The translations under genes were made by a program, and so were the position numbers. The notes beneath the pieces are model-generated. The model did no database searches and was not told the origin of the DNA. It saw nothing but the letters and a program-made list of their open reading frames with translations. DNA of 44,592 bases from Colwellia sp. MB02u-6. GTDB taxonomy: Bacteria; Pseudomonadota; Gammaproteobacteria; Enterobacterales; Alteromonadaceae. Shown here one piece after another: positions 17,609-32,634 of the stretch (its first letter is position 1; each line of letters starts with the position of its first letter). Location of the stretch: positions 1 to 44,592 of the forward strand of contig NZ_JACGVG010000017.1 of assembly GCF_014077095.1 (NCBI RefSeq), in the 5' to 3' direction.

Positions 17609-18442
17609 TTATTTGTTAAATAACAAAATAGTTCTCAACTCAATACTGACGCGACTTTGCGCGTTTTTAGCCACCGAAGGCAGTGAGAAAGCACTATGCG
17701 GAATTCTATTAACTGCATTGCTTTCGTCGCTATCAAATACTTTAAAATTAAGTTGTTCTTTCGATGTCATTCGAGAGAAATAAAACCAACGATTGTTTGG
17801 GTTATAACTAAAACCTTCAATTTCCCCAACACGATCAGGATAGGCAACCTGAAGTAAATGTGATTGCTCTGAAGTAATACTGCGCGCATCGGCAAATGCG
17901 AGTGGGCTGTCTAACACCACATCAACTAACGGTATCCAAGTATTAATAAATTGATAGCGACGATAATCACTCGCTTTTAAGCCCTTTTTTTCAAGTTCAA
18001 TATCTAAACGATTTTGTGCCGAACTAGCGACATAATCGTTATGTACCGTATGAATAGGAGAGCGTTTTTCAGCACAATGAGGCCTGTTTTCAACCGAACG
18101 AATTGTATGGTCGAATACCACGCCTTTGCTGGCATTGGTTAAGCTCATAAGGTGTTTGATGATTTGCGGATAAAGTTCACGGCTAACCACAGCGTCATCA
18201 AAATAATCAGCCACATGATACTTATTGGTAACTAAACCAAAACCATCTTCTTTTAGTGTCGCAGTTTTCGTTAATAAACGAGCATCCGTAATTTTGACCA
18301 CACGTTTATCCACTTGATCGGTAAGTGTGTCGGTACTTTTTTTGCCTGTTGATAAATCAAACGTCGCTTGAATATTTGGCTTGATATAATTGATTTCAGC
18401 AGCAAGGGTCGGCTGATGTTGATTTGCGGCATTCAATAGCAT
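17609..18442 (-). CDS. CmcJ/NvfI-like 2OG-Fe(II) oxygenase family protein
   Basis: About 277 aa from the ATG at 18442; a TTG four codons upstream is possible but lacks a ribosome binding site. It matches the family that includes the cephamycin P8 protein CmcJ, fungal NvfI and related proteins: LLTKTATLKEDGFGLV, GVVFDHTIRSVE, then VHNDY (His and Asp near 134-136 as metal ligands), FINTWIPL, DSPLAFADARS and a distal HSAF followed by an Arg-rich RVSIELR. The fold is a double-stranded beta helix. Known relatives act in secondary metabolism; the substrate here is unknown. It is the first gene of the minus-strand cluster and diverges from the LysR gene. Confidence 0.75.
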   Translation of the reverse strand: MLLNAANQHQPTLAAEINYIKPNIQATFDLSTGKKSTDTLTDQVDKRVVKITDARLLTKTATLKEDGFGLVTNKYHVADYFDDAVVSRELYPQIIKHLMSLTNASKGVVFDHTIRSVENRPHCAEKRSPIHTVHNDYVASSAQNRLDIELEKKGLKASDYRRYQFINTWIPLVDVVLDSPLAFADARSITSEQSHLLQVAYPDRVGEIEGFSYNPNNRWFYFSRMTSKEQLNFKVFDSDESNAVNRIPHSAFSLPSVAKNAQSRVSIELRTILLFNK

Positions 18443-18454
18443 AATAAGGTCCAA

Positions 18455-19449: not shown

Positions 19450-19517
19450 ATAAATCAACAGCAATTTAAGACGCTAGACTATTAGCTTGGCTCATTAATT
19501 ATGATTTTAGTGTTGGT

Positions 19518-19550
19518 AAATAAGGCGACAAGCATGCTGAAGCCTTATTT
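19518..19550. terminator. Bidirectional terminator between LysR and the SMC operon
   Basis: AAATAAGGC and GCCTTATTT form a 9-bp perfect stem around a 15-nt loop, followed by TTGTT on the plus strand and TTTACC on the minus strand. It starts 2 nt after the stop of the last SMC-operon gene, so it serves both convergent units. Confidence 0.65.
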
Positions 19551-19552
19551 TG

Positions 19553-20773
19553 TTAATGATTGAAGTGTATTGAAATATCTTTAATATCAAAGTTACCGTT
19601 AAAAGATTTTGAATAGTTACCCAGGGGTTTAAAGATAAAAAATTTACTTTTTTCCGCGGGTAATCTTAAAATTTCAGTATAGATAGCATCTAAAAATAAT
19701 TGCGGTTTACATTCAGGTTGTAGTTGTTGATAAATGTTATTCACTAGCACTTTATCGCCTGGTGTTTTGATTAACGCTAACAGTATATCTTCTAGCCACT
19801 TTGCGCCTATGGGTGTTTCAACTGCTTTTTCAACATTGTCTTGTGTCATATCAAGAGAAGAATTATTGTCCCTTTCTTTTTTAAAACGTTCACCTTCCTC
19901 TAAGTTAAGCGATTGTGCCAGATCGATTAAATCATTGCGGGTTAGTAAACTCGACTCATCAGGATAAACATCGATGTTCATTGCTTTAACTAAGTTGGTG
20001 ATGTTTGGCGGCATGCTAATGTCTTTAACACTGATAAGATCACTAAAGTCATGATCGGTTTTTGTGTCGAAGTATTGTTTAAATTGCCTAACAAGTTTAC
20101 CTCTACCTTCCAATTTTCTAAAACCAATCAACAAGGCTTGCATCAGTGTCAGTGCATTAATGAGTTCTTTAATCGCACTTTGTTTACCACCAAATAAGTC
20201 GTTATTAATAATGGAACGTAGTCGTAAATCGGTGATAGGCCTTTCCAATAGTTCTGCTTCATCAATAATATTTAACGCTTGTCTAAGGGTTCTTGCTTCT
20301 GCAATGGCTTGTTCATTTTCTTTACGCTTTGCCGATATTGAATGCACATAACCAAATTGATTTTCAATACGGTTTCTTAATTGTTGTATGTTGTTGTTTA
20401 TACCATCGAGTAATTGATAGATAGAGTCAATAACCAGTCTTTTATACATATCGCTGTCACTGTAAGCGCCAAGGGTATTTGAGTGGTTTAGTTGGTTTAT
20501 ATTAAATAAAATACTGCGCCAATAGCCACCCACATCCAGATTAATAGCCAATGTTCTTTCTGTTTTAAGCGCATTTTCTAAAAAATTTTGAAAGGCACTG
20601 CTGAGTCTTATACTGCCTGAGGCGGTTTCAAAAGCCAGATTATAATTGTGAAGTTCATCAAAACCTTTCAGGGCTTCTTCAGTCGGCGGAAGTACTCCCT
20701 CGGTTATAATGGTGTCAATGGTTGCCGCATGCTTTGCTAACATACGAAACATTTTTCTCATGGCACCCGACAT
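19553..20773 (-). CDS. Probable kleisin-like subunit of an SMC complex (MksF/JetA/MukF-like)
   Basis: 406 aa. An N-terminal winged-helix-like region (about 20-75: GVLPPTEEALKGFDELHNYN, IRLSSAFQNFLENAL) is followed by a helical bundle (about 95-250) and a C-terminal domain (about 310-400) that could be the second winged helix contacting the ATPase head. This order is that of kleisins in MukF, MksF and JetA, but the primary sequence is too divergent for me to claim a named family. It is the third gene of the operon; its ATG overlaps the stop of the KITE-like gene by one base. The SD is weak, so translational coupling is likely. The call rests on position, size and domain order. Confidence 0.6.
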   Translation of the reverse strand: MSGAMRKMFRMLAKHAATIDTIITEGVLPPTEEALKGFDELHNYNLAFETASGSIRLSSAFQNFLENALKTERTLAINLDVGGYWRSILFNINQLNHSNTLGAYSDSDMYKRLVIDSIYQLLDGINNNIQQLRNRIENQFGYVHSISAKRKENEQAIAEARTLRQALNIIDEAELLERPITDLRLRSIINNDLFGGKQSAIKELINALTLMQALLIGFRKLEGRGKLVRQFKQYFDTKTDHDFSDLISVKDISMPPNITNLVKAMNIDVYPDESSLLTRNDLIDLAQSLNLEEGERFKKERDNNSSLDMTQDNVEKAVETPIGAKWLEDILLALIKTPGDKVLVNNIYQQLQPECKPQLFLDAIYTEILRLPAEKSKFFIFKPLGNYSKSFNGNFDIKDISIHFNH

Positions 20774-21408
20774 TATATCAAATCATCCTGTGCTGGCTCA
20801 TCTAAGTCGATGTCATCAAATTTCTCAGCTTGATAAGTCATAATAAATTCCATCAAGTTAATGTAGTAGGCAAGCTTACCCGTACAAAGATAGATATCTA
20901 TCTTGGGTTCAATTTGCTTTAAAACATCAGTTTTAACTAGGCTATTAATCAATTGTTTGGTTTTATCAAAAACACTGCCTTTTAACTGACCTTTTATCTG
21001 GATAATGATCCGGTCTAATGATTTTAACAGTGATTTATCGTTTTCAATTTTACTGACAATTTGAGCCAGGTGAATTTCATCACCGGTATAGAGTGAATGT
21101 TCGTCATTACTCACGCGCATCATTAAACTTAGAAACTCAACTACTGGCCTTATTTCTTGCTGAGTTTGCTTAAATACTGCTCTTGACGCTCGCCTTCTAT
21201 CGGGGGTCATAGACTCATACGACGCATAATAAAATTCGCGGTCGATATCAGATAATGTTTTACCGGTTTGATACAAATAGGTCTGTACACGCTCTCTGTT
21301 GATATCTGAACTTAGAAAGTCGTAACTTGTAGCACAGGTTATAGGACAAATGAATTTACCGGCTAAAAGTGACTCTACTGTGTTTGTGAACACTTCATCA
21401 AAAATCAT
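20773..21408 (-). CDS. KITE-like subunit of an SMC complex (MksE/JetB/MukE-like)
   Basis: 211 aa, the usual size of KITE proteins. Residues 1-35 (FTNTVESLLAGKFICPITCA) resemble the opening of MukE/MksE, and DREFYYASYESMTPDRRRAS near 56-75 recalls their conserved aromatic/basic stretch. Two winged-helix domains are expected. The C-terminal tail is very acidic (KFDDIDLDEPAQDDLI). Overlap with the SMC-like gene is ATGA, and with the kleisin-like gene TAATG, so the three products are almost certainly made together. The family name is by analogy; a profile search would settle it. Confidence 0.6.
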   Translation of the reverse strand: MIFDEVFTNTVESLLAGKFICPITCATSYDFLSSDINRERVQTYLYQTGKTLSDIDREFYYASYESMTPDRRRASRAVFKQTQQEIRPVVEFLSLMMRVSNDEHSLYTGDEIHLAQIVSKIENDKSLLKSLDRIIIQIKGQLKGSVFDKTKQLINSLVKTDVLKQIEPKIDIYLCTGKLAYYINLMEFIMTYQAEKFDDIDLDEPAQDDLI

Positions 21409-24400
21409 GACGGGGTACCTACTGCACTGGTTTGTGCGGCACTGATTGCTTTAAGCAAAGGATCATCGTTAGCGGTGATTTGTTCAAACCTATTTTTCGG
21501 TTTATTAATAAAATAGCGTTTGTGATAAACCCCCATGAAGTTATTATCTGCATTAGGAATAGCGGTAAAAATGGTATCTCTTTCTTTATCAAACATCGCA
21601 AATAGTGAGTCGACGTTTTCAACTGAGATTTCACCTAATTCATCAACGCCATATAGAATATCAACATTTTGTGTCCCTTTGATCATAGAGCCTAATGAAG
21701 TGGTAAACGCCAGCAGAATTAAGTAACTCATGCCATTAGAAGATATGTCTTTTAAATCACTACCTGAACGCGCGATTTTTCTTTCATTATTAACCACAGC
21801 TTCAAAAGAAATATCATATAAATTAGAGTGCCTCTCTACCAGTTTGTTATGGGTAAATTTTGTCAAAACTTCTGACATAGCAACGCCATAACTTTCAGGA
21901 GGTAAGCTTTGTTGATTATCTTTGCTCCAAGCTTCATAGGTTTTTTTAAATGATTTTAAGGCCGAAAACACTTCGTGAGATTCGAGTAAAGGTGTTAGGT
22001 TAATTGATATTTTACCTAAGGCGCTAAAGACAGTTTTTTTCTCTAAGTAGCTATTAACTCTTAAACTAAAAGCATTAATATCAGATTCATAACGTTTGAG
22101 CTGATCATAAAAACCAGATAATTCCATACCCCGTAGCGCCGCATTCTCGATAATTAAATCACGTACTTCATTAATCACTAAGGGTAACTCTTTGACAATA
22201 TAATCTGAAATAAGCCTTAGATTAGGATCTATCTCCAAGGCATTACTTTTCATATCGATGGATTTTTTTATCGCACTATTCAAATGGATATTCATTTGGG
22301 AGATAACTTGTTCAGCATATCCTTTAATGCTTTTTAATGCCTTACGATGACTTTTTAATATGTTATCTAATTCACCGCAAATTGTTTCAAATGAATGGGT
22401 TTGTGCCGTGTCAAAAGCTTGCTCAAATTCGCCTAATCGATTGGTTAAGCGCAAGGCCATTTCGTGCTGTTGGCTAACCTTTGACAGCTTACCGGTAATC
22501 GCGTCACGGTTGATGATAAAAGCGGCTTTACGGGCTTTAATCCTGTCATTAAGTTCAGTAAGTGATTGAGTCAGGTTTGTTACCCCTTGCGAAGCCTTAA
22601 ACGATTTATCATTAAGGCTGTCAAGTTGGCTATAGCTGTTGCTCATAAAGGCGTTATAACTGCTAATGATACCTGGAGCATTTTTTAATCGGCTAAGTTG
22701 TTTTTCTAAAGTGACTATTTCATTATCAAGTTTGATTAGTGATTCGGTATCAATATTTTTATCATTTAATTGATTTTTTTCATCCGCGGCTAAGCGGCTG
22801 ATCGCTACGGTATATTCTGTAGTGTTTTGGCTTATTTTTTCTTCTGTCTGCTTGATATAACCTTCTAGCTCAACATTTTGCCCCATATGTTGTTCTTGTA
22901 AACTTCGAATACGGTCTAAGTGCTGTTGATTAATCTGACTTAGTTTTTCTTTATTTTCTCGACCCAGTTTACTCAGGGCATTGTTAAGCGCTTTAGCTTC
23001 AGTCTCTAAAGCTAACTTGGCTTGTTCAATTTCATTTTTTTGTTCAATATGAAGCTGATTGATATTGGCATTGATAGATTCAAGTAATTGCTGCTTTAAC
23101 GCTGTTTTAGCTTTAATCTTAATGAGGTCTTGTTGCAGTACATTTTGCTCGTTGGCAATGGCTTTAACTTTGTCTGACAGTTTTTCTTTTGTCTCATTTA
23201 ATTGTAAAATATGCTGGTCAATTTGTTCAATTTCGGCGCTAATAGTGTCACTTGTTTTCGCAAAATCATTATAAACACCAGCCCAATCTAGCGTTAAGCC
23301 TTTAAAGTGATTTTTTGAGTGTTCAGCGCTAAAATCAGGATTAAGATGGGTTGACGCTAATACCGCGGGTGCAAGAAACTTACCTATACTTTCAGACCAG
23401 TCATCAACATTGTTCACCAAGAACTCATGCAGCGAATGTTTTTTTGGATTGAGTAAGCGCTCTAAGTCATTTTTTGCTGATACCTTAGTTTTTATTTTGT
23501 CGGCTGTATCGGCCATTTCGCTCAGTATTTTATCCGTTTGCATCGCACTATTTTGCGCTTGACGCTCAAAATCGATTGCTTGTCTTGAGTCTGCGTTAAG
23601 CGCTTCGTTTGCCCGTTGCAATTCCTGTTGTGCTAAATTAAATTGTGTTCTTGCTTCCTTACTGACATCAACACTTTGTAATTTAAAATGACAATGGCTG
23701 AGTTTATTTTCATAATCGGCAGAAAGTTGCTGTAATTGATTTTCATTATCTGAAATGGCGATTTTTAGATCATATCCCACTTCGCTCATTACCGTGCTTT
23801 GTTTTACTGTAATATTGCTATATTCAGCATTGGCAACACTAAGCTGGCTACTAAGCTGATCTTTTAAGCTATAAAATTGTGCTTGTCGTTTAGATTTAAG
23901 TTTGTCAAATTTCGCGGTAATGTTTTGAGCTTCGTCCAGTAAATTTTCTTTTTCAACACTAGCATTGTCAAGTTGTGCTTGATAATGATCAATATTGGCA
24001 TAGTCACTTTTTAAGCTGCCAACATCTTTTTCTTCCCAAGAAAGTTTTTCAGCTTCAATGGTCTCGATTTGTCTTTTGGCGCCGTCAACGATACGACTAT
24101 TGTCACTTATTTGATCGGCTAAGCTATTTTTTTCATCTGATGTTTTTAGATTTTCAGTCGAGTTTTCAGTATTTAATGCCGCAAGTTCAAGCGTTAGCGC
24201 TTTAAGTGAATAATCGAATTGTTCAGTATAGGCCAACAAGTTATGTTTATATTCAGCCAACATGGCTTCAGAATTTTCTGCCGTATAAAGAGATTTAGAT
24301 AATTTGGGTAATATGCTACTGGCTAAATCATCGTAAGTCCTAAGCGCGTTATAATCAGTTTTCCAGATAGATAGACTCGCTACGTCCATATTAAACTCAA

Positions 24401-25076
24401 GTTCATTTTTACCGCCATTGAGCATAATGGACGATAGCAGTTCTTTAATACGTTTGAAGTCCGTATTGCGCTCTAATGCAGCACCAACCACGGTATTGAG
24501 CATTGATAAATTTTTGCCCGGTGCGGCAAGCGAAAACCTATGCTTTGCTTCTGTCAGATCCTTATCACTAAATACTGCCGTACCGAGAATAATTTTTTGA
24601 TAATGTGATGGCGAAGATACCGCTTTAACAGGCACCTGCTTTAAATGGAAATGGCGATAGATGTTTGTACAGGGAATTAAATTTAGTGTCCCATCTGGCG
24701 AAGGCTCAGCCGTGTAATCGGCAAGGTCAAATGGCTTATCTACAAATAGGTAGTTTATACTTTCGTTTTTACTAAAACACACGGCTTGCTTAATGCCTGA
24801 GTGCGTTTGATATTCAAAAATAATATAGCTGGTCAGTCTAGGTAGGTAATAGTTTACAAAAGACTCTCTGATTTTACCCCGTACTTTAACAACATCACCG
24901 GGAGCATCAGCAAAAAATATTCTGACCAGTTTTAAAAAGGTAGTTTTGCCCGCCGCATTGGTGCCACTGAGATTAGTATGGCCACTAACGTCAACCTCAA
25001 CCCTTCTTCCCTTAAAGTAGCTATCGATTAAAATTATGCGTAATAGTTTGCTACTTGGTGCAACTTTCAAGGTCAT
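21405..25076 (-). CDS. SMC-like ATPase (DUF3584 / MksB-JetC type)
   Basis: 1223 aa. Walker A is GTNAAGKT at 38-45 near the N-terminus. Two long coiled-coil arms (about 260-540 and 610-1010, rich in Glu, Lys, Gln, Leu) flank a hinge-like globular segment at 545-605 (HEFLVNNVDDWSESIGKFLA), which resembles the hinge of DUF3584 and condensin-like MksB/JetC proteins. The C-terminal head has an ABC signature DISSNGMSYLILLAF (1110-1124) in place of LSGGQ, and Walker B VDILYGVDELGEI (1138-1150, D1145-E1146). It would form a dimer that entraps or extrudes DNA using ATP. It is the first gene of the operon; the related Muk, Mks and Jet operons put the ATPase last or next to last. Upstream is a 460-bp spacer that should hold the promoter. 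Confidence 0.85.
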   Translation of the reverse strand: MTLKVAPSSKLLRIILIDSYFKGRRVEVDVSGHTNLSGTNAAGKTTFLKLVRIFFADAPGDVVKVRGKIRESFVNYYLPRLTSYIIFEYQTHSGIKQAVCFSKNESINYLFVDKPFDLADYTAEPSPDGTLNLIPCTNIYRHFHLKQVPVKAVSSPSHYQKIILGTAVFSDKDLTEAKHRFSLAAPGKNLSMLNTVVGAALERNTDFKRIKELLSSIMLNGGKNELEFNMDVASLSIWKTDYNALRTYDDLASSILPKLSKSLYTAENSEAMLAEYKHNLLAYTEQFDYSLKALTLELAALNTENSTENLKTSDEKNSLADQISDNSRIVDGAKRQIETIEAEKLSWEEKDVGSLKSDYANIDHYQAQLDNASVEKENLLDEAQNITAKFDKLKSKRQAQFYSLKDQLSSQLSVANAEYSNITVKQSTVMSEVGYDLKIAISDNENQLQQLSADYENKLSHCHFKLQSVDVSKEARTQFNLAQQELQRANEALNADSRQAIDFERQAQNSAMQTDKILSEMADTADKIKTKVSAKNDLERLLNPKKHSLHEFLVNNVDDWSESIGKFLAPAVLASTHLNPDFSAEHSKNHFKGLTLDWAGVYNDFAKTSDTISAEIEQIDQHILQLNETKEKLSDKVKAIANEQNVLQQDLIKIKAKTALKQQLLESINANINQLHIEQKNEIEQAKLALETEAKALNNALSKLGRENKEKLSQINQQHLDRIRSLQEQHMGQNVELEGYIKQTEEKISQNTTEYTVAISRLAADEKNQLNDKNIDTESLIKLDNEIVTLEKQLSRLKNAPGIISSYNAFMSNSYSQLDSLNDKSFKASQGVTNLTQSLTELNDRIKARKAAFIINRDAITGKLSKVSQQHEMALRLTNRLGEFEQAFDTAQTHSFETICGELDNILKSHRKALKSIKGYAEQVISQMNIHLNSAIKKSIDMKSNALEIDPNLRLISDYIVKELPLVINEVRDLIIENAALRGMELSGFYDQLKRYESDINAFSLRVNSYLEKKTVFSALGKISINLTPLLESHEVFSALKSFKKTYEAWSKDNQQSLPPESYGVAMSEVLTKFTHNKLVERHSNLYDISFEAVVNNERKIARSGSDLKDISSNGMSYLILLAFTTSLGSMIKGTQNVDILYGVDELGEISVENVDSLFAMFDKERDTIFTAIPNADNNFMGVYHKRYFINKPKNRFEQITANDDPLLKAISAAQTSAVGTPS

Positions 25077-25543: not shown

Positions 25544-26092
25544 TTAGAAATAGCTAACGTAATCGTCGAATTCTCTAGCTTTTTTCACTGGTAATTCTTT
25601 CGACTTTTCGCCGATATAGAGAAAACCAACAATTTCCTCATGTAGCTCAATGTTTAAACGCTCTTTGACTAAAGGATGGTAACTCATTTCACCCGTGCGC
25701 CACACAGCACCTAAATTTAAGGTGGTTGCTGCCATCTGCATTGCATGCACTGTACACCCTGCCGCTATTAACTGCTCTTGTTTTGGCACTTTAACGTGTT
25801 GATGAAACTTAGTACTAATTACAATAATTAAAGGCGCACGAAAAGGCATTTTAGCCGCTTTTTCTACTTTAAGCTCATCGCCACCGTCAGTGATCGCCGC
25901 TGATTTGAACGCTTTGCTAAGCTTTGTCAGACCCTCACCTTTTACAATAGTGAACCGCCATGGTGTTAAACCTGCATGGTCGGGGACGCGCATGCCGGCC
26001 TTAAGAATATTACTAATGGCGTGCTCATCAGGACTATTTCCGTGTAAATAAGGATTAGACTGACGAGTATGTAAAAATTCCAAAACGTTCAT
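25544..26092 (-). CDS. ydjA: Nitroreductase-family FMN oxidoreductase YdjA
   Basis: 182 aa, the length of E. coli YdjA. FMN-binding N-terminus HTRQSNPYLHGNSPDEH near 8-24, MRVPDHAGLTPWRFTIVKGE near 34-53, and LNLGAVWRTGE near 126-136. It reduces nitro compounds and quinone-like acceptors in the cytoplasm with NAD(P)H. It is divergent from sppA; ydjA-sppA-ansA neighbourhood is conserved with enterobacteria, which supports orthology. Confidence 0.9.
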   Translation of the reverse strand: MNVLEFLHTRQSNPYLHGNSPDEHAISNILKAGMRVPDHAGLTPWRFTIVKGEGLTKLSKAFKSAAITDGGDELKVEKAAKMPFRAPLIIVISTKFHQHVKVPKQEQLIAAGCTVHAMQMAATTLNLGAVWRTGEMSYHPLVKERLNIELHEEIVGFLYIGEKSKELPVKKAREFDDYVSYF

Positions 26093-29772: not shown

Positions 29773-32634
29773 TTATTGAAAAATAGGTTTTATTCTTTCT
29801 AGTAACCCAAGGTCTTGTTGAGAAAATTTTCCTAACATTAACCACTGAGAAAACTTAGCAGGTAAATCAATCGCCGTGCCTGACGACATTTGCGCTTGCA
29901 TTAAACTGACTTGCACTGTCATGCGCTGTTGTTGTAAATTACTTGGTGAAGGATTACCTGATAAAATTTCAAGCTCTAACGTCGCATCTTCTCTATTAAA
30001 ATGTGTAGTGTTATTCTCTAATTCTTTTAACTTTTTCTGCCAAGAAGCTGTTAACTGTAAATATTCTTTTTGCTCAGTAAAACTTTCTGCATTACTGATA
30101 CTTTCTTCAAGGGTCAAAAATAAATAACCCCATTGGCGCTTTTCATCAGCAAGTTTGCAATCAACAATTCTCTGGGCGATGGTTTTTTCTTTAGCGCTAA
30201 TTTGTTTTTCGAGGTTCAACATTTTAGGCTTTTGTTGCGCAACATCTTTATTTAACACATGCAACGCTTGCTCAAACATCTGCAGATCGTTTAATTGTGT
30301 TACTTGCGAATATTTTTCTTCAAGCGTTTTTAGAGCACTTTCTAATTCTGCGACCCTAGCTGACGTGGCTGATTTTTCTAATACATTTTTTTGTGCACGT
30401 TTAGCAAAAATATCATCATTAATTTTTCTGAAATTTTGCCAAAGTGTATTTTCTACTTTTGGTCCGGCATAACCCGTGATGCGCCATTGTGTTTGCAAGG
30501 CTTTAACTTGCGTAACTGCGGTAACAACATCTTCTGTCGCCAGTAATTTTTCAGCCTCAGTAATAAGTTGCTGCTTTAAGGCTTTATTTTCTTGGTGAAA
30601 AACTTTAATTGCAGATTTTATTGGCTGTAACGTGAGATTAAATTGGTTATTAATATCTTGATACACAGCTCGATCAACCTGGCCGGCACTTTGCCACTGT
30701 TTTATCAGTTGGTTTAATTCTACTTCTAAGGTTTTATAATCAACAGTCAGACTCTCATCGTTAGTTTTTTTACCACGGCTTAGTTGCTCGTGAAGTAATT
30801 TTGCCTGTTCAACAAATGATTCGCGAGTGATCAAGTGCTGCGCTCTTAAATTTTCTTGTTCGGCAAAAAATAAGCGACAAGGTGTGAACGCTGTTTCGCA
30901 TAGTTGATTAAATTCATTATTTAAAGTTTTTTCTGCGTCATCATCGGCATGACCTAAACTATTCCAAATCTTACGATATTGCTTAACCTTCTCTGCCTGT
31001 TCGCTGGGATTATCGAGTGGCGTTTCAACAATCGCTTTAATGTCCGCTAATAGTTTTTGCTTGCGTGGTGTGGCAATGTAGCGTTCCCAATCAGCTAACT
31101 CGGCAATTTTTTCACTGAGTGAATCATAATCTTTTTGAATACGGTATTGTTGCTGTTCAGCTAAAGCATTAAATAATTGTTTAGCTTTTTTGAAAACACC
31201 AAACGCTGCATTGTACTTTCCAGCAGAGATTAATCTTCTAACATCGTGGAGTTTTTTCTGTGTTATAGAAAATTCTTGTTTTTTTGCTTCTTGCAAAGGT
31301 TTTAATGCTTGGCGCCAGTTTTGCTGAATTTTATTGGCCGCAGTTTTAATTGAATCAGGTAAAGCACCAGAGGTGTTTTTCTCAGCACTTTTCCAATCGC
31401 TCAACCATGTTTGATAAACCGGCAGTCGTTCATCCATTTCTTCAGCCGTTGTTGGTAGGGCTAACTGTGATATTTTTGAAATTAAATGTGTAGCCTCACT
31501 GACCGATTTTGCAATTTCTGGTAATTGCTGTAACTTTTTTTGTTGTTGACAGATTTTAGCAATAAATTCGTTCTGTTCATTTTTAGCTAATACTGAAACA
31601 ATAATTTCGCTGGTTAATTTATCAAATAGCGTTTGATATTGCTGCTCTTCAATTTTATCATTTTCAAAAATACTGGTGGTTAACGTTTGGTTAATAACCG
31701 CTAGGGTTTTATCAAAGTGAATACGCGCTTGCTGTTTTTGTTCATTAAGCTGACGAATAATTTCAGCTTGCACATGTTGCTCAGCTTTGGCGATAAACAA
31801 TTTATCGAGTTGCGCTAAAATGGCTAATTTTTTATCTTTAAACGTTGTTATTTCAGCGGCGTCAAAACAACTAAACTCAGTAGCTAATACCTGCCATTCA
31901 TGACTTAACAGCTCACGTTTATTAAGATAGTCTTGGTACTCGTATTGATCTTTGAGTGCTTGGAGCTTAGCTAAGACTAAATTTACTTTTTTGCGTAATG
32001 CTATCGGTTGTTCAATGGCAAACTGCATTTGAGCAATTTTTTCAGTCAACTGCTGTGTGATCTCAGCCTGCTGTGATTTTTTCTTTAGCTTTTCTAAAGT
32101 ATCTAAGTCAGCTACTTTTTCAATGATATATTGTTGAACCTGTACATTTTGCTTTTGAGTGAAGAGGTTAAGTAATAACTGAGGTTTTAATGCTAACTTA
32201 TTGCTTTGCTCGTTCACTTGATTTTTATTGGCAATTTTTTCAAATAATACAATAATCAAATCAGCATCTTCGGTAGTTTTCAACCAGTTTTCATACAAAC
32301 TATAATGCTTGTGCTCAGCAATATAACTGAGTTTTTCTTGCTGAGAAACTCTAATAGCATCTTGATCCATTAAAATAGCCGCTACTTTGTCACTAGCATA
32401 TTGCTTTACTTTTGCCATGGTATTTTCTTGGCTCTGATTTAACCAAGATTGAAAGCTAGCAAGCTTTATCAAGCCGGCTCGTCGAACATTTTCGTTGTCG
32501 TCGTTTTTGATCAGCGCTATGATAATGTCTCGTTGCGCTGGATCATCAGCTGACAAACTACTGTTAATCGCTTCAACACGCACTACACTGTTTTTATGTT
32601 GCCATTTCTTTTTTAAAAATTTAGAGAAAATCAT
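29773..32634 (-). CDS. DUF349 domain-containing protein
   Basis: 953 aa, mostly long helices. Several DUF349 repeats (PF03993, about 75 residues each) are visible between about 420 and 780, with the usual W-(x)n-F/Y pattern: WRQALKPLQEAKKQEF, YRKIWNSLGHADDDAEKT, WQSAGQVDRAVYQDINNQFN, WRITGYAGPKVENTLWQNFR. The N-terminal 80 residues look like a HEAT-type repeat (RVEAINSSLSADDPAQRDII). Cytoplasmic, function unknown; often seen beside the DUF1315 gene in gammaproteobacteria. Its start overlaps the stop of the upstream yeaC-like gene (ATGA), so the pair is co-translated. Confidence 0.85.
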   Translation of the reverse strand: MIFSKFLKKKWQHKNSVVRVEAINSSLSADDPAQRDIIIALIKNDDNENVRRAGLIKLASFQSWLNQSQENTMAKVKQYASDKVAAILMDQDAIRVSQQEKLSYIAEHKHYSLYENWLKTTEDADLIIVLFEKIANKNQVNEQSNKLALKPQLLLNLFTQKQNVQVQQYIIEKVADLDTLEKLKKKSQQAEITQQLTEKIAQMQFAIEQPIALRKKVNLVLAKLQALKDQYEYQDYLNKRELLSHEWQVLATEFSCFDAAEITTFKDKKLAILAQLDKLFIAKAEQHVQAEIIRQLNEQKQQARIHFDKTLAVINQTLTTSIFENDKIEEQQYQTLFDKLTSEIIVSVLAKNEQNEFIAKICQQQKKLQQLPEIAKSVSEATHLISKISQLALPTTAEEMDERLPVYQTWLSDWKSAEKNTSGALPDSIKTAANKIQQNWRQALKPLQEAKKQEFSITQKKLHDVRRLISAGKYNAAFGVFKKAKQLFNALAEQQQYRIQKDYDSLSEKIAELADWERYIATPRKQKLLADIKAIVETPLDNPSEQAEKVKQYRKIWNSLGHADDDAEKTLNNEFNQLCETAFTPCRLFFAEQENLRAQHLITRESFVEQAKLLHEQLSRGKKTNDESLTVDYKTLEVELNQLIKQWQSAGQVDRAVYQDINNQFNLTLQPIKSAIKVFHQENKALKQQLITEAEKLLATEDVVTAVTQVKALQTQWRITGYAGPKVENTLWQNFRKINDDIFAKRAQKNVLEKSATSARVAELESALKTLEEKYSQVTQLNDLQMFEQALHVLNKDVAQQKPKMLNLEKQISAKEKTIAQRIVDCKLADEKRQWGYLFLTLEESISNAESFTEQKEYLQLTASWQKKLKELENNTTHFNREDATLELEILSGNPSPSNLQQQRMTVQVSLMQAQMSSGTAIDLPAKFSQWLMLGKFSQQDLGLLERIKPIFQ

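Follow-up and report, generated by a model that had tools for sequence, protein, structure and literature searches.

Deletion of a putative DUF7281 nuclease gene from an MksBEF/Wadjet-like operon of Colwellia, and its probable recurrence across the order

In structural maintenance of chromosomes (SMC) complexes, hinge contacts pair two ATPase subunits, whose heads are bridged by a kleisin; the KITE subunit binds the kleisin, and loop extrusion is driven by ATP hydrolysis. MukBEF is a three-subunit SMC/KITE/kleisin condensin without a nuclease, and the MksB family was reportedly founded in work by Petrushenko in 2011. Wadjet (JetABCD) and MksBEFG consist of an SMC ATPase, a KITE subunit, a kleisin-like protein and a nuclease, encoded in the order kleisin-KITE-ATPase-nuclease; the gene order mksFEBG is given for Pseudomonas species in the accessible part of PMC10123090, and the kleisin-first order was found by open reading frame (ORF) size in 16 of 20 JetD_C loci. 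In Wadjet, the proposed trigger for JetD is extrusion that has passed completely around a small circle (PMC10586767, accessible text), and Pseudomonas aeruginosa has both SMC and MksBEF condensins (accessible parts of PMC7485682 and PMC10586767). Here we describe an operon of related composition in a 44,592-nucleotide stretch of DNA from Colwellia sp. MB02u-6 (positions 1 to 44,592 of contig NZ_JACGVG010000017.1, the whole of which is termed the window), which encodes an SMC-type ATPase, a KITE subunit and a presumed kleisin and from which a fourth gene, coding for a putative toprim nuclease of the DUF7281 family, has been deleted.

The comparison covered 103 related loci: the window, three further Colwellia loci (L031, L032 and L057) and another 99 found in 98 other genomes of the order. 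The family shares the SMC ATPase, the KITE subunit and a kleisin-like protein with Wadjet and MksBEFG, and a JetD-related toprim protein is present in 57 of the 103 loci. It differs from these systems in that the genes run ATPase-KITE-kleisin-nuclease, the DUF7281 protein has a median length of 295 aa compared with 403 aa for JetD, the third subunit has no detectable similarity to Wadjet JetA and the window copy is devoid of a nuclease. The P. aeruginosa MksBEF complex, compared by description only, is likewise a nuclease-free complex of the MksBEF type beside SMC-ScpAB, differing in the F-E-B-G order given for Pseudomonas and in that the loss event is visible here. MukBEF has the same three-subunit composition without a nuclease, but the KITE and third subunits gave no MukE or MukF profile match, although the control comparisons, MukF with JetA and MukE with JetB, were equally negative. 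Weak matches to LmuB of Lamassu were obtained for 5 of 33 ATPases, that of the window at residues 649-944; the window's best stretch, however, lies between the hinge and the C-terminal head, and its KITE subunit matches MksE and no Lamassu protein. LmuB and AriA matches of the ATPases were taken as coiled-coil or P-loop similarity.

The initial annotation had described three ORFs with overlaps of 4 and 1 bp, coding for an SMC-like ATPase with Walker A, hinge-like and Walker B segments, a KITE-sized protein and a third protein, and these descriptions were borne out, coordinates and lengths being unchanged. The 4-bp overlap joins the ATPase and KITE ORFs and the 1-bp overlap the KITE and third-subunit ORFs. 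The match of the window ATPase to Pfam DUF3584 (E 4.3e-144) spans the entire protein and, in a 33-member ATPase alignment, the Walker A residues G38, G43 and K44, the Walker B residues D1145 and E1146, and S1113 and G1115, which we take to be the ABC signature, are invariant, as are, or nearly so, several residues between positions 544 and 593, a hinge-like pattern. The ATPase family profile matches JetC with a probability of 90% at positions 794-1221; the window ATPase itself matches the PADLOC JetC2 model with an E value of only 0.012, and the JetC models of PADLOC 2.0.0 match 2 of the 33 ATPases at E 1e-5. Against solved structures the ATPase profile gave coiled-coil or P-loop matches and the window ATPase alone gave none. 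The KITE protein matches Pfam MksE (E 1.9e-7, 32 bits with a cut-off of 27), as do 35 of the 46 members tested, a further 6 matching DUF4194, and its family profile matches JetB with a probability of 80% at positions 16-196. The profile of the third subunit did not match JetA, a result that is not evidence either way as the MukF-JetA control fails too; its fold model was unusable (mean pLDDT 36, from a 3-row alignment), and the kleisin and KITE family profiles gave nothing meaningful against solved structures. The JetA-D and MukE/F comparison sets were assembled not by family search but from genes of suitable position and size next to JetD_C and MukB matches. The third subunit is presumed to be a kleisin from its operon position and size. 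Our best reading of these sequences places the operon in the MksBEF/Wadjet group as an SMC/KITE(/kleisin) system; given its ATPase-first order, its DUF7281 nuclease and the poor matching by PADLOC JetC models, we treat it as an unassigned subtype. In its four-gene form this subtype is largely missed by PADLOC 2.0.0.

Deletion of the nuclease gene is evident from comparison with L031, whose ATPase is 88% identical to that of the window and in which the nuclease gene (L031 15509-16369) starts within the last codons of the kleisin gene. The window-L031 alignment is continuous through the operon to window position 19548; a second block, window 19501-19543, lies just downstream of the kleisin stop and is 83.7% identical over its 43 bp to L031 16139-16181, which is 0.6 kb further along in L031 and falls inside the nuclease gene. 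In L032, whose ATPase is 96% identical to that of the window, the corresponding remnant is 36 bp long, and the remaining 3' end of the nuclease gene is also gone from both loci. The 103-bp 3' flank in the window gave a local score of 29 against the L031 nuclease gene, compared with maxima of 17 in 5000 dinucleotide shuffles and 18 among 1746 other 103-bp window stretches, and when the L031 nuclease gene and flank were searched against the window's genome at the DNA level, the 43-bp fragment was the only part of the gene returned (E 6e-5). A hairpin lies at the junction (-11.2 kcal/mol, z -3.4 in the window; z -4.0 for the same hairpin in L032) and is absent from the matching stretch of the nuclease-bearing L031 (z -0.35). 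It has no long T run and was not among the terminator-scan sites, the promoter and terminator scans giving no excess over shuffles; lying between the kleisin and LysR genes, which converge on it, it may represent a newly formed terminator. These results show that the three-gene operon of the window and L032 arose from a four-gene ancestor by deletion of ∼0.6 kb inside the nuclease gene plus its 3' end. The nuclease was thus almost certainly lost in the window's lineage, its absence being neither chance nor the ancestral state. The initial annotation was correct in finding no nuclease gene on either side, where the neighbours are a LysR gene and ydjA, but was incomplete, as the window copy is a deletion derivative of a four-gene operon.

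The state from which the window operon was derived is widespread. An ATPase relative was found in 104 of 295 genomes of the order, the window's own included, 5 of the 104 being left out of the locus comparison. ATPase, KITE and kleisin genes were all called in 99 of the 103 loci, one core gene being missed by the caller in the other 4, and lie in the same order on one strand in 99 of 99, so that the ATPase-first order remarked on in the initial annotation is a real difference. Gene order is therefore kept among relatives but absence of a nuclease is not general, a DUF7281 fourth gene being detected by profile search in 57 loci. It lies within 200 bp of the kleisin gene in 53 of the 57, overlapping it or at most 25 bp away in 49, and is further downstream in three (L059, L131 and L136), the kleisin being uncalled in one. 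In L136 the nuclease gene is ∼0.5 kb behind the kleisin and in L059 and L131 ∼5 kb, with other genes intervening; such spacing may represent stages on the way to loss. Among the 46 loci without a fourth gene, L069 and L134 end at a contig edge, leaving 44 judged nuclease-less.

Fourth-gene products are 270-350 aa long in 54 of 57 loci. Pfam DUF7281 was matched by 9 of 10 proteins tested, with weak matches to JetD_C in 3 and to PADLOC JetD in 7, and the toprim-like residues E144, D196, D198 and G201 (L031 numbering) are invariant in an alignment of 35 members. The family profile matches JetD with a probability of 94.7% in the region of these residues, its matches to solved structures being weak (TopoVI-A, E 0.014; MksG, E 0.33), and fold prediction of the L031 protein from a single sequence was unusable (pLDDT 35). 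Of the 60 genomes of the order with DUF7281, 2 are without a relative of the window ATPase. A search of 350 genomes of the class, a few of which belong to the order, identified four full-span ATPase loci outside the order, all with DUF7281 ∼2.2 kb downstream on the same strand, together with a partial match (G480) and a fragment (G527) without it. Two scans of viral contigs returned no relative. Plasmid records matching the ATPase numbered 33; in the 7 regions examined, all 6 with a called kleisin carry DUF7281 and the seventh is an ATPase fragment only. In an IncC plasmid (L173 615-14727) the four-gene operon, its ATPase split by an IS256-family element, is next to genes for Tn7-like transposition and for a WYL-domain protein. 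In the genome G558, which is not of the order, a second DUF7281 match (contig C1 1604478-1604884) lies a long way from the intact operon and is broken into two pieces, one of which has an in-frame TAG.

Distribution of the nuclease gene was followed on a tree of the 103 operons inferred from concatenated ATPase heads, KITE and kleisin by a quick method (LG+G4, long branches flagged), on which the window's clade sits on a long branch, its deeper placement being uncertain. Nuclease presence changes at least 18 times across 100 labelled loci, compared with 33 for shuffled labels, and counting losses only gives 24 maximal nuclease-less clades on the midpoint-rooted tree; one nuclease-less clade comprises 11 loci. 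Because most deep lineages have four genes, as do all 6 plasmid operons in which a kleisin was called, the pattern is better read as recurrent loss, and we infer that most of the changes are losses from a four-gene ancestor, with some gains possible. Nuclease-less loci were compared with nuclease-bearing relatives in 15 cases. In 10 of them, the alignment picks up again no more than 80 bp past the point where the nuclease gene of the relative ends; L040, compared with L074, rejoins inside the gene and retains its final ∼140 bp, now out of frame, L086 rejoins only ∼1.1 kb past the end, and L061, L071 and L125 give no alignment. Relatives are shared among these comparisons, such that the 11 agreeing cases (the 10 and L040) do not equal 11 events. 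By eye, L061 retains an apparent nuclease-gene start that runs into a stop after 27 codons. DUF7281 fragments were sought by profile up to 8 kb behind the kleisin of nuclease-less loci, giving two weak matches (E 0.94 and 3.3), the weaker of which, in L040, is a true nuclease remnant by DNA. Nuclease and ATPase distances are correlated (Spearman 0.68 over 55 loci, 0 of 500 permutations), as fits co-inheritance. No replacement gene common to the nuclease-less loci was seen behind the kleisin, judged by gene size and spacing.

Loss of the nuclease was probably not followed by decay of the remaining genes. Between the window and L032 no frame is broken and dN/dS is 0.125 for the ATPase, 0.134 for the KITE gene and 0.029 for the kleisin gene at a dS of 0.14-0.17, four flanking genes giving 0.061-0.141; ATPase values against the nuclease-bearing L031, 0.110 and 0.119, are about equal. 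Two pairs from nuclease-less clades are also constrained in the ATPase, L092/L098 (w 0.040 at dS 0.56) and L097/L099 (w 0.065 at dS 0.21), as are other nuclease-less pairs, dS being saturated for some genes of two of them. Full-length ATPase, KITE and kleisin frames are present in 42 of the 44 loci judged nuclease-less, with one gene uncalled in each of the other 2. The three core genes have thus remained open and under purifying selection since the loss, which shows that the complex is useful without its DUF7281 nuclease, and the core is probably still functional. In contrast, nuclease dN/dS (0.07-0.26) exceeds that of each core gene (0.00-0.08) in 11 of 11 nuclease-bearing pairs, several of which share a member and some of which have a dS above 1.5. 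The KITE genes of the window (20773-21408) and L032 (13669-14304) differ by 11 residues at a dS of 0.165, compared with 12 and 11 residues between this disarmed pair and the three times more distant L031 (dS 0.53), corresponding to w values of 0.134 versus 0.055 and 0.051. Loss of a JetD-contacting KITE motif along with the nuclease was considered and rejected, as the candidate, an N-terminal IFD, occurs only in the window's three-member clade, with and without nuclease.

Within the genus, ydjA is present in 16 of 17 genomes and the operon lies behind it in 3. In 12 of the 13 other ydjA loci, ydjA directly adjoins, with no operon between them, a convergent gene for a class II aminoacyl-tRNA synthetase (Pfam tRNA-synt_2), probably asnS, and in L031 the four-gene operon lies between the two genes, indicating that the operon entered at a defined site. 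The later history of this site is messy. The DNA behind the scar differs between the window and L032; in L032, the scar and the synthetase gene are ∼19 kb apart, with genes for an integrase and for phage replication in between, and in the window's genome the synthetase gene is on another contig. The L032 region (L168 1176-11100 and L169 953-8358) encodes a tyrosine integrase, a phage replication gene A protein, a DUF2326 protein and an AAA_13 ATPase, presumably RloC-like, and resembles an integrated element that may carry defence cargo. The fourth Colwellia locus, L057 (G308 C1 590000-609500), is a very distant four-gene copy at another site, ∼20 kb from ydjA.

We read the window operon as an MksBEF/Wadjet-like loop extruder that was disarmed and kept, probably as an accessory condensin, and assign this reading a probability of about 0.6; that its function is mainly chromosomal is slightly favoured. 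The complex would keep using ATP to extrude DNA loops and, like MksBEF of P. aeruginosa, would work on the chromosome alongside SMC-ScpAB as an accessory condensin. With the nuclease removed, chromosomal extrusion would remain, circular DNA would no longer be cut and plasmids would at most be compacted. The window's genome contains ScpA and no Pfam MukB match, the window ATPase itself being without one. Counting strong matches only, MukB is present in 119 of the 295 genomes of the order but in only 4 of the 104 with the ATPase, compared with 42 expected by chance, a difference for which the Fisher p is descriptive only as lineages are non-independent. For the order as a whole, the odds appear even that loop extrusion on the chromosome is the main role of the core and that the DUF7281 nuclease is a weapon module which evolves fast and can be dispensed with, the complex having been disarmed ∼18-24 separate times. 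Among the options raised by the initial annotation, an orphan chromosome condensin appears the most likely.

Several points weigh against this reading. The 406-aa third subunit has no credible kleisin-family match in sequence, Pfam or profile searches, and nuclease activity of the DUF7281 protein, which appears JetD-like, is deduced from its sequence. The window's genome has no DUF7281 or JetD_C match, other nuclease families not having been searched for. Of the 17 genus genomes, only 3 have the operon at the ydjA site and a fourth has a distant copy at another location, a patchiness that suits an accessory rather than a core condensin. Among the 18 pairs for which an ATPase dN/dS was obtained, window/L032 has the highest; the KITE subunit has sped up since the loss, perhaps through partial relaxation or adaptation, at odds with an unchanged complex; and purifying selection is a sign of function, not of which function. 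Finally, tree change counts cannot distinguish gain from loss, and for 11 of 55 nuclease proteins the nearest relative is outside the three nearest by ATPase.

Part of this evidence would also fit a continuing role in defence, in which the nuclease-free complex restrains plasmids or phages by compacting, silencing or sequestering them, or recruits an unrelated nuclease encoded elsewhere. Its relatives are four-gene, defence-like operons, also plasmid-borne and once beside Tn7-like genes, its presence at the ydjA site is patchy, and antiviral Smc5/6 provides a precedent (PMC10586767, accessible text). We nevertheless regard this as doubtful, since no JetD_C or DUF7281 gene was found elsewhere in the window's genome, which also speaks against a distant nuclease of either family for the defence system suggested in the initial annotation, no common replacement gene follows the kleisin by size and spacing, and suppression of plasmid transformation in Bacillus subtilis required all four subunits, as stated in the accessible part of PMC10586767. 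The unstable insertion site, with differing DNA behind the scar and an integrase and phage replication gene in L032, and the KITE acceleration since the loss are what a decaying relic would leave, inactivated by loss of the nuclease with the rest yet to erode; this is improbable in view of the purifying selection detected between the window and L032 and in the L092/L098 and L097/L099 pairs, the nuclease-less clade of 11 loci and the full-length frames of 42 of 44 loci. Least probable is that a three-gene condensin is ancestral and gained the nuclease repeatedly. The change counts alone would permit it and the 11 imperfectly matching nucleases might suggest it, but remnants of the nuclease gene in the window, L032, L040 and probably L061 argue against it, contradicting it for the window's lineage, as does a nuclease in the same position in most deep lineages, in the four full-span loci outside the order and in six plasmid operons.

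If the core is indeed chiefly a chromosomal extruder across the order, the proposed passage from defence to condensin would be ongoing and repeated, with intermediates and scars readable in living genomes. A loss event has been caught together with its scar and seems to recur across an order, and close relatives that differ by the nuclease, such as L040/L074, L088/L090 and L050/L101, form natural sets in which the chromosomal role of the core, and whether the nuclease alone separates a condensin from a plasmid killer, become testable. Recurrent nuclease loss is not described in the accessible portions of PMC10586767, PMC10123090, PMC10512200 and PMC13040014. In the open-access literature searched, DUF7281 is unmentioned and no DUF3584 paper concerns this operon type by title; most subscription papers lie outside that search.

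The features of the window discussed here are collected in Table 1.

Table 1. Features of the operon and its deletion junction in the window
Feature	Position	Strand	Basis
SMC-type ATPase, 1223 aa (MksB/JetC-like, DUF3584)	21405..25076	-	ORF, Pfam, invariant motifs, JetC profile
KITE subunit, 211 aa (MksE/JetB-like)	20773..21408	-	Pfam MksE, JetB profile
Presumed kleisin, 406 aa (MksF/JetA position)	19553..20773	-	Conserved operon position and size only
Remnant of deleted DUF7281 toprim nuclease gene (putative nuclease), 43 bp	19501..19543	-	Matches L031 16139-16181, within L031 nuclease gene
Hairpin at deletion junction, possible terminator	19518..19550	-	RNA fold; between convergent kleisin and LysR genes
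ydjA-like nitroreductase, conserved upstream edge of insertion site	25544..26092	-	Comparison of genus ydjA loci

Two other genes of the window were also noted. Divergent from the LysR gene, window 17609-18454 encodes a CmcJ/NvfI-family oxidoreductase (NCBIfam E 9.9e-73). Window 29773-32634 encodes a 953-aa DUF349-containing protein whose position is kept in L031 and L032 and whose dN/dS, 0.14, is similar to that of the ATPase.

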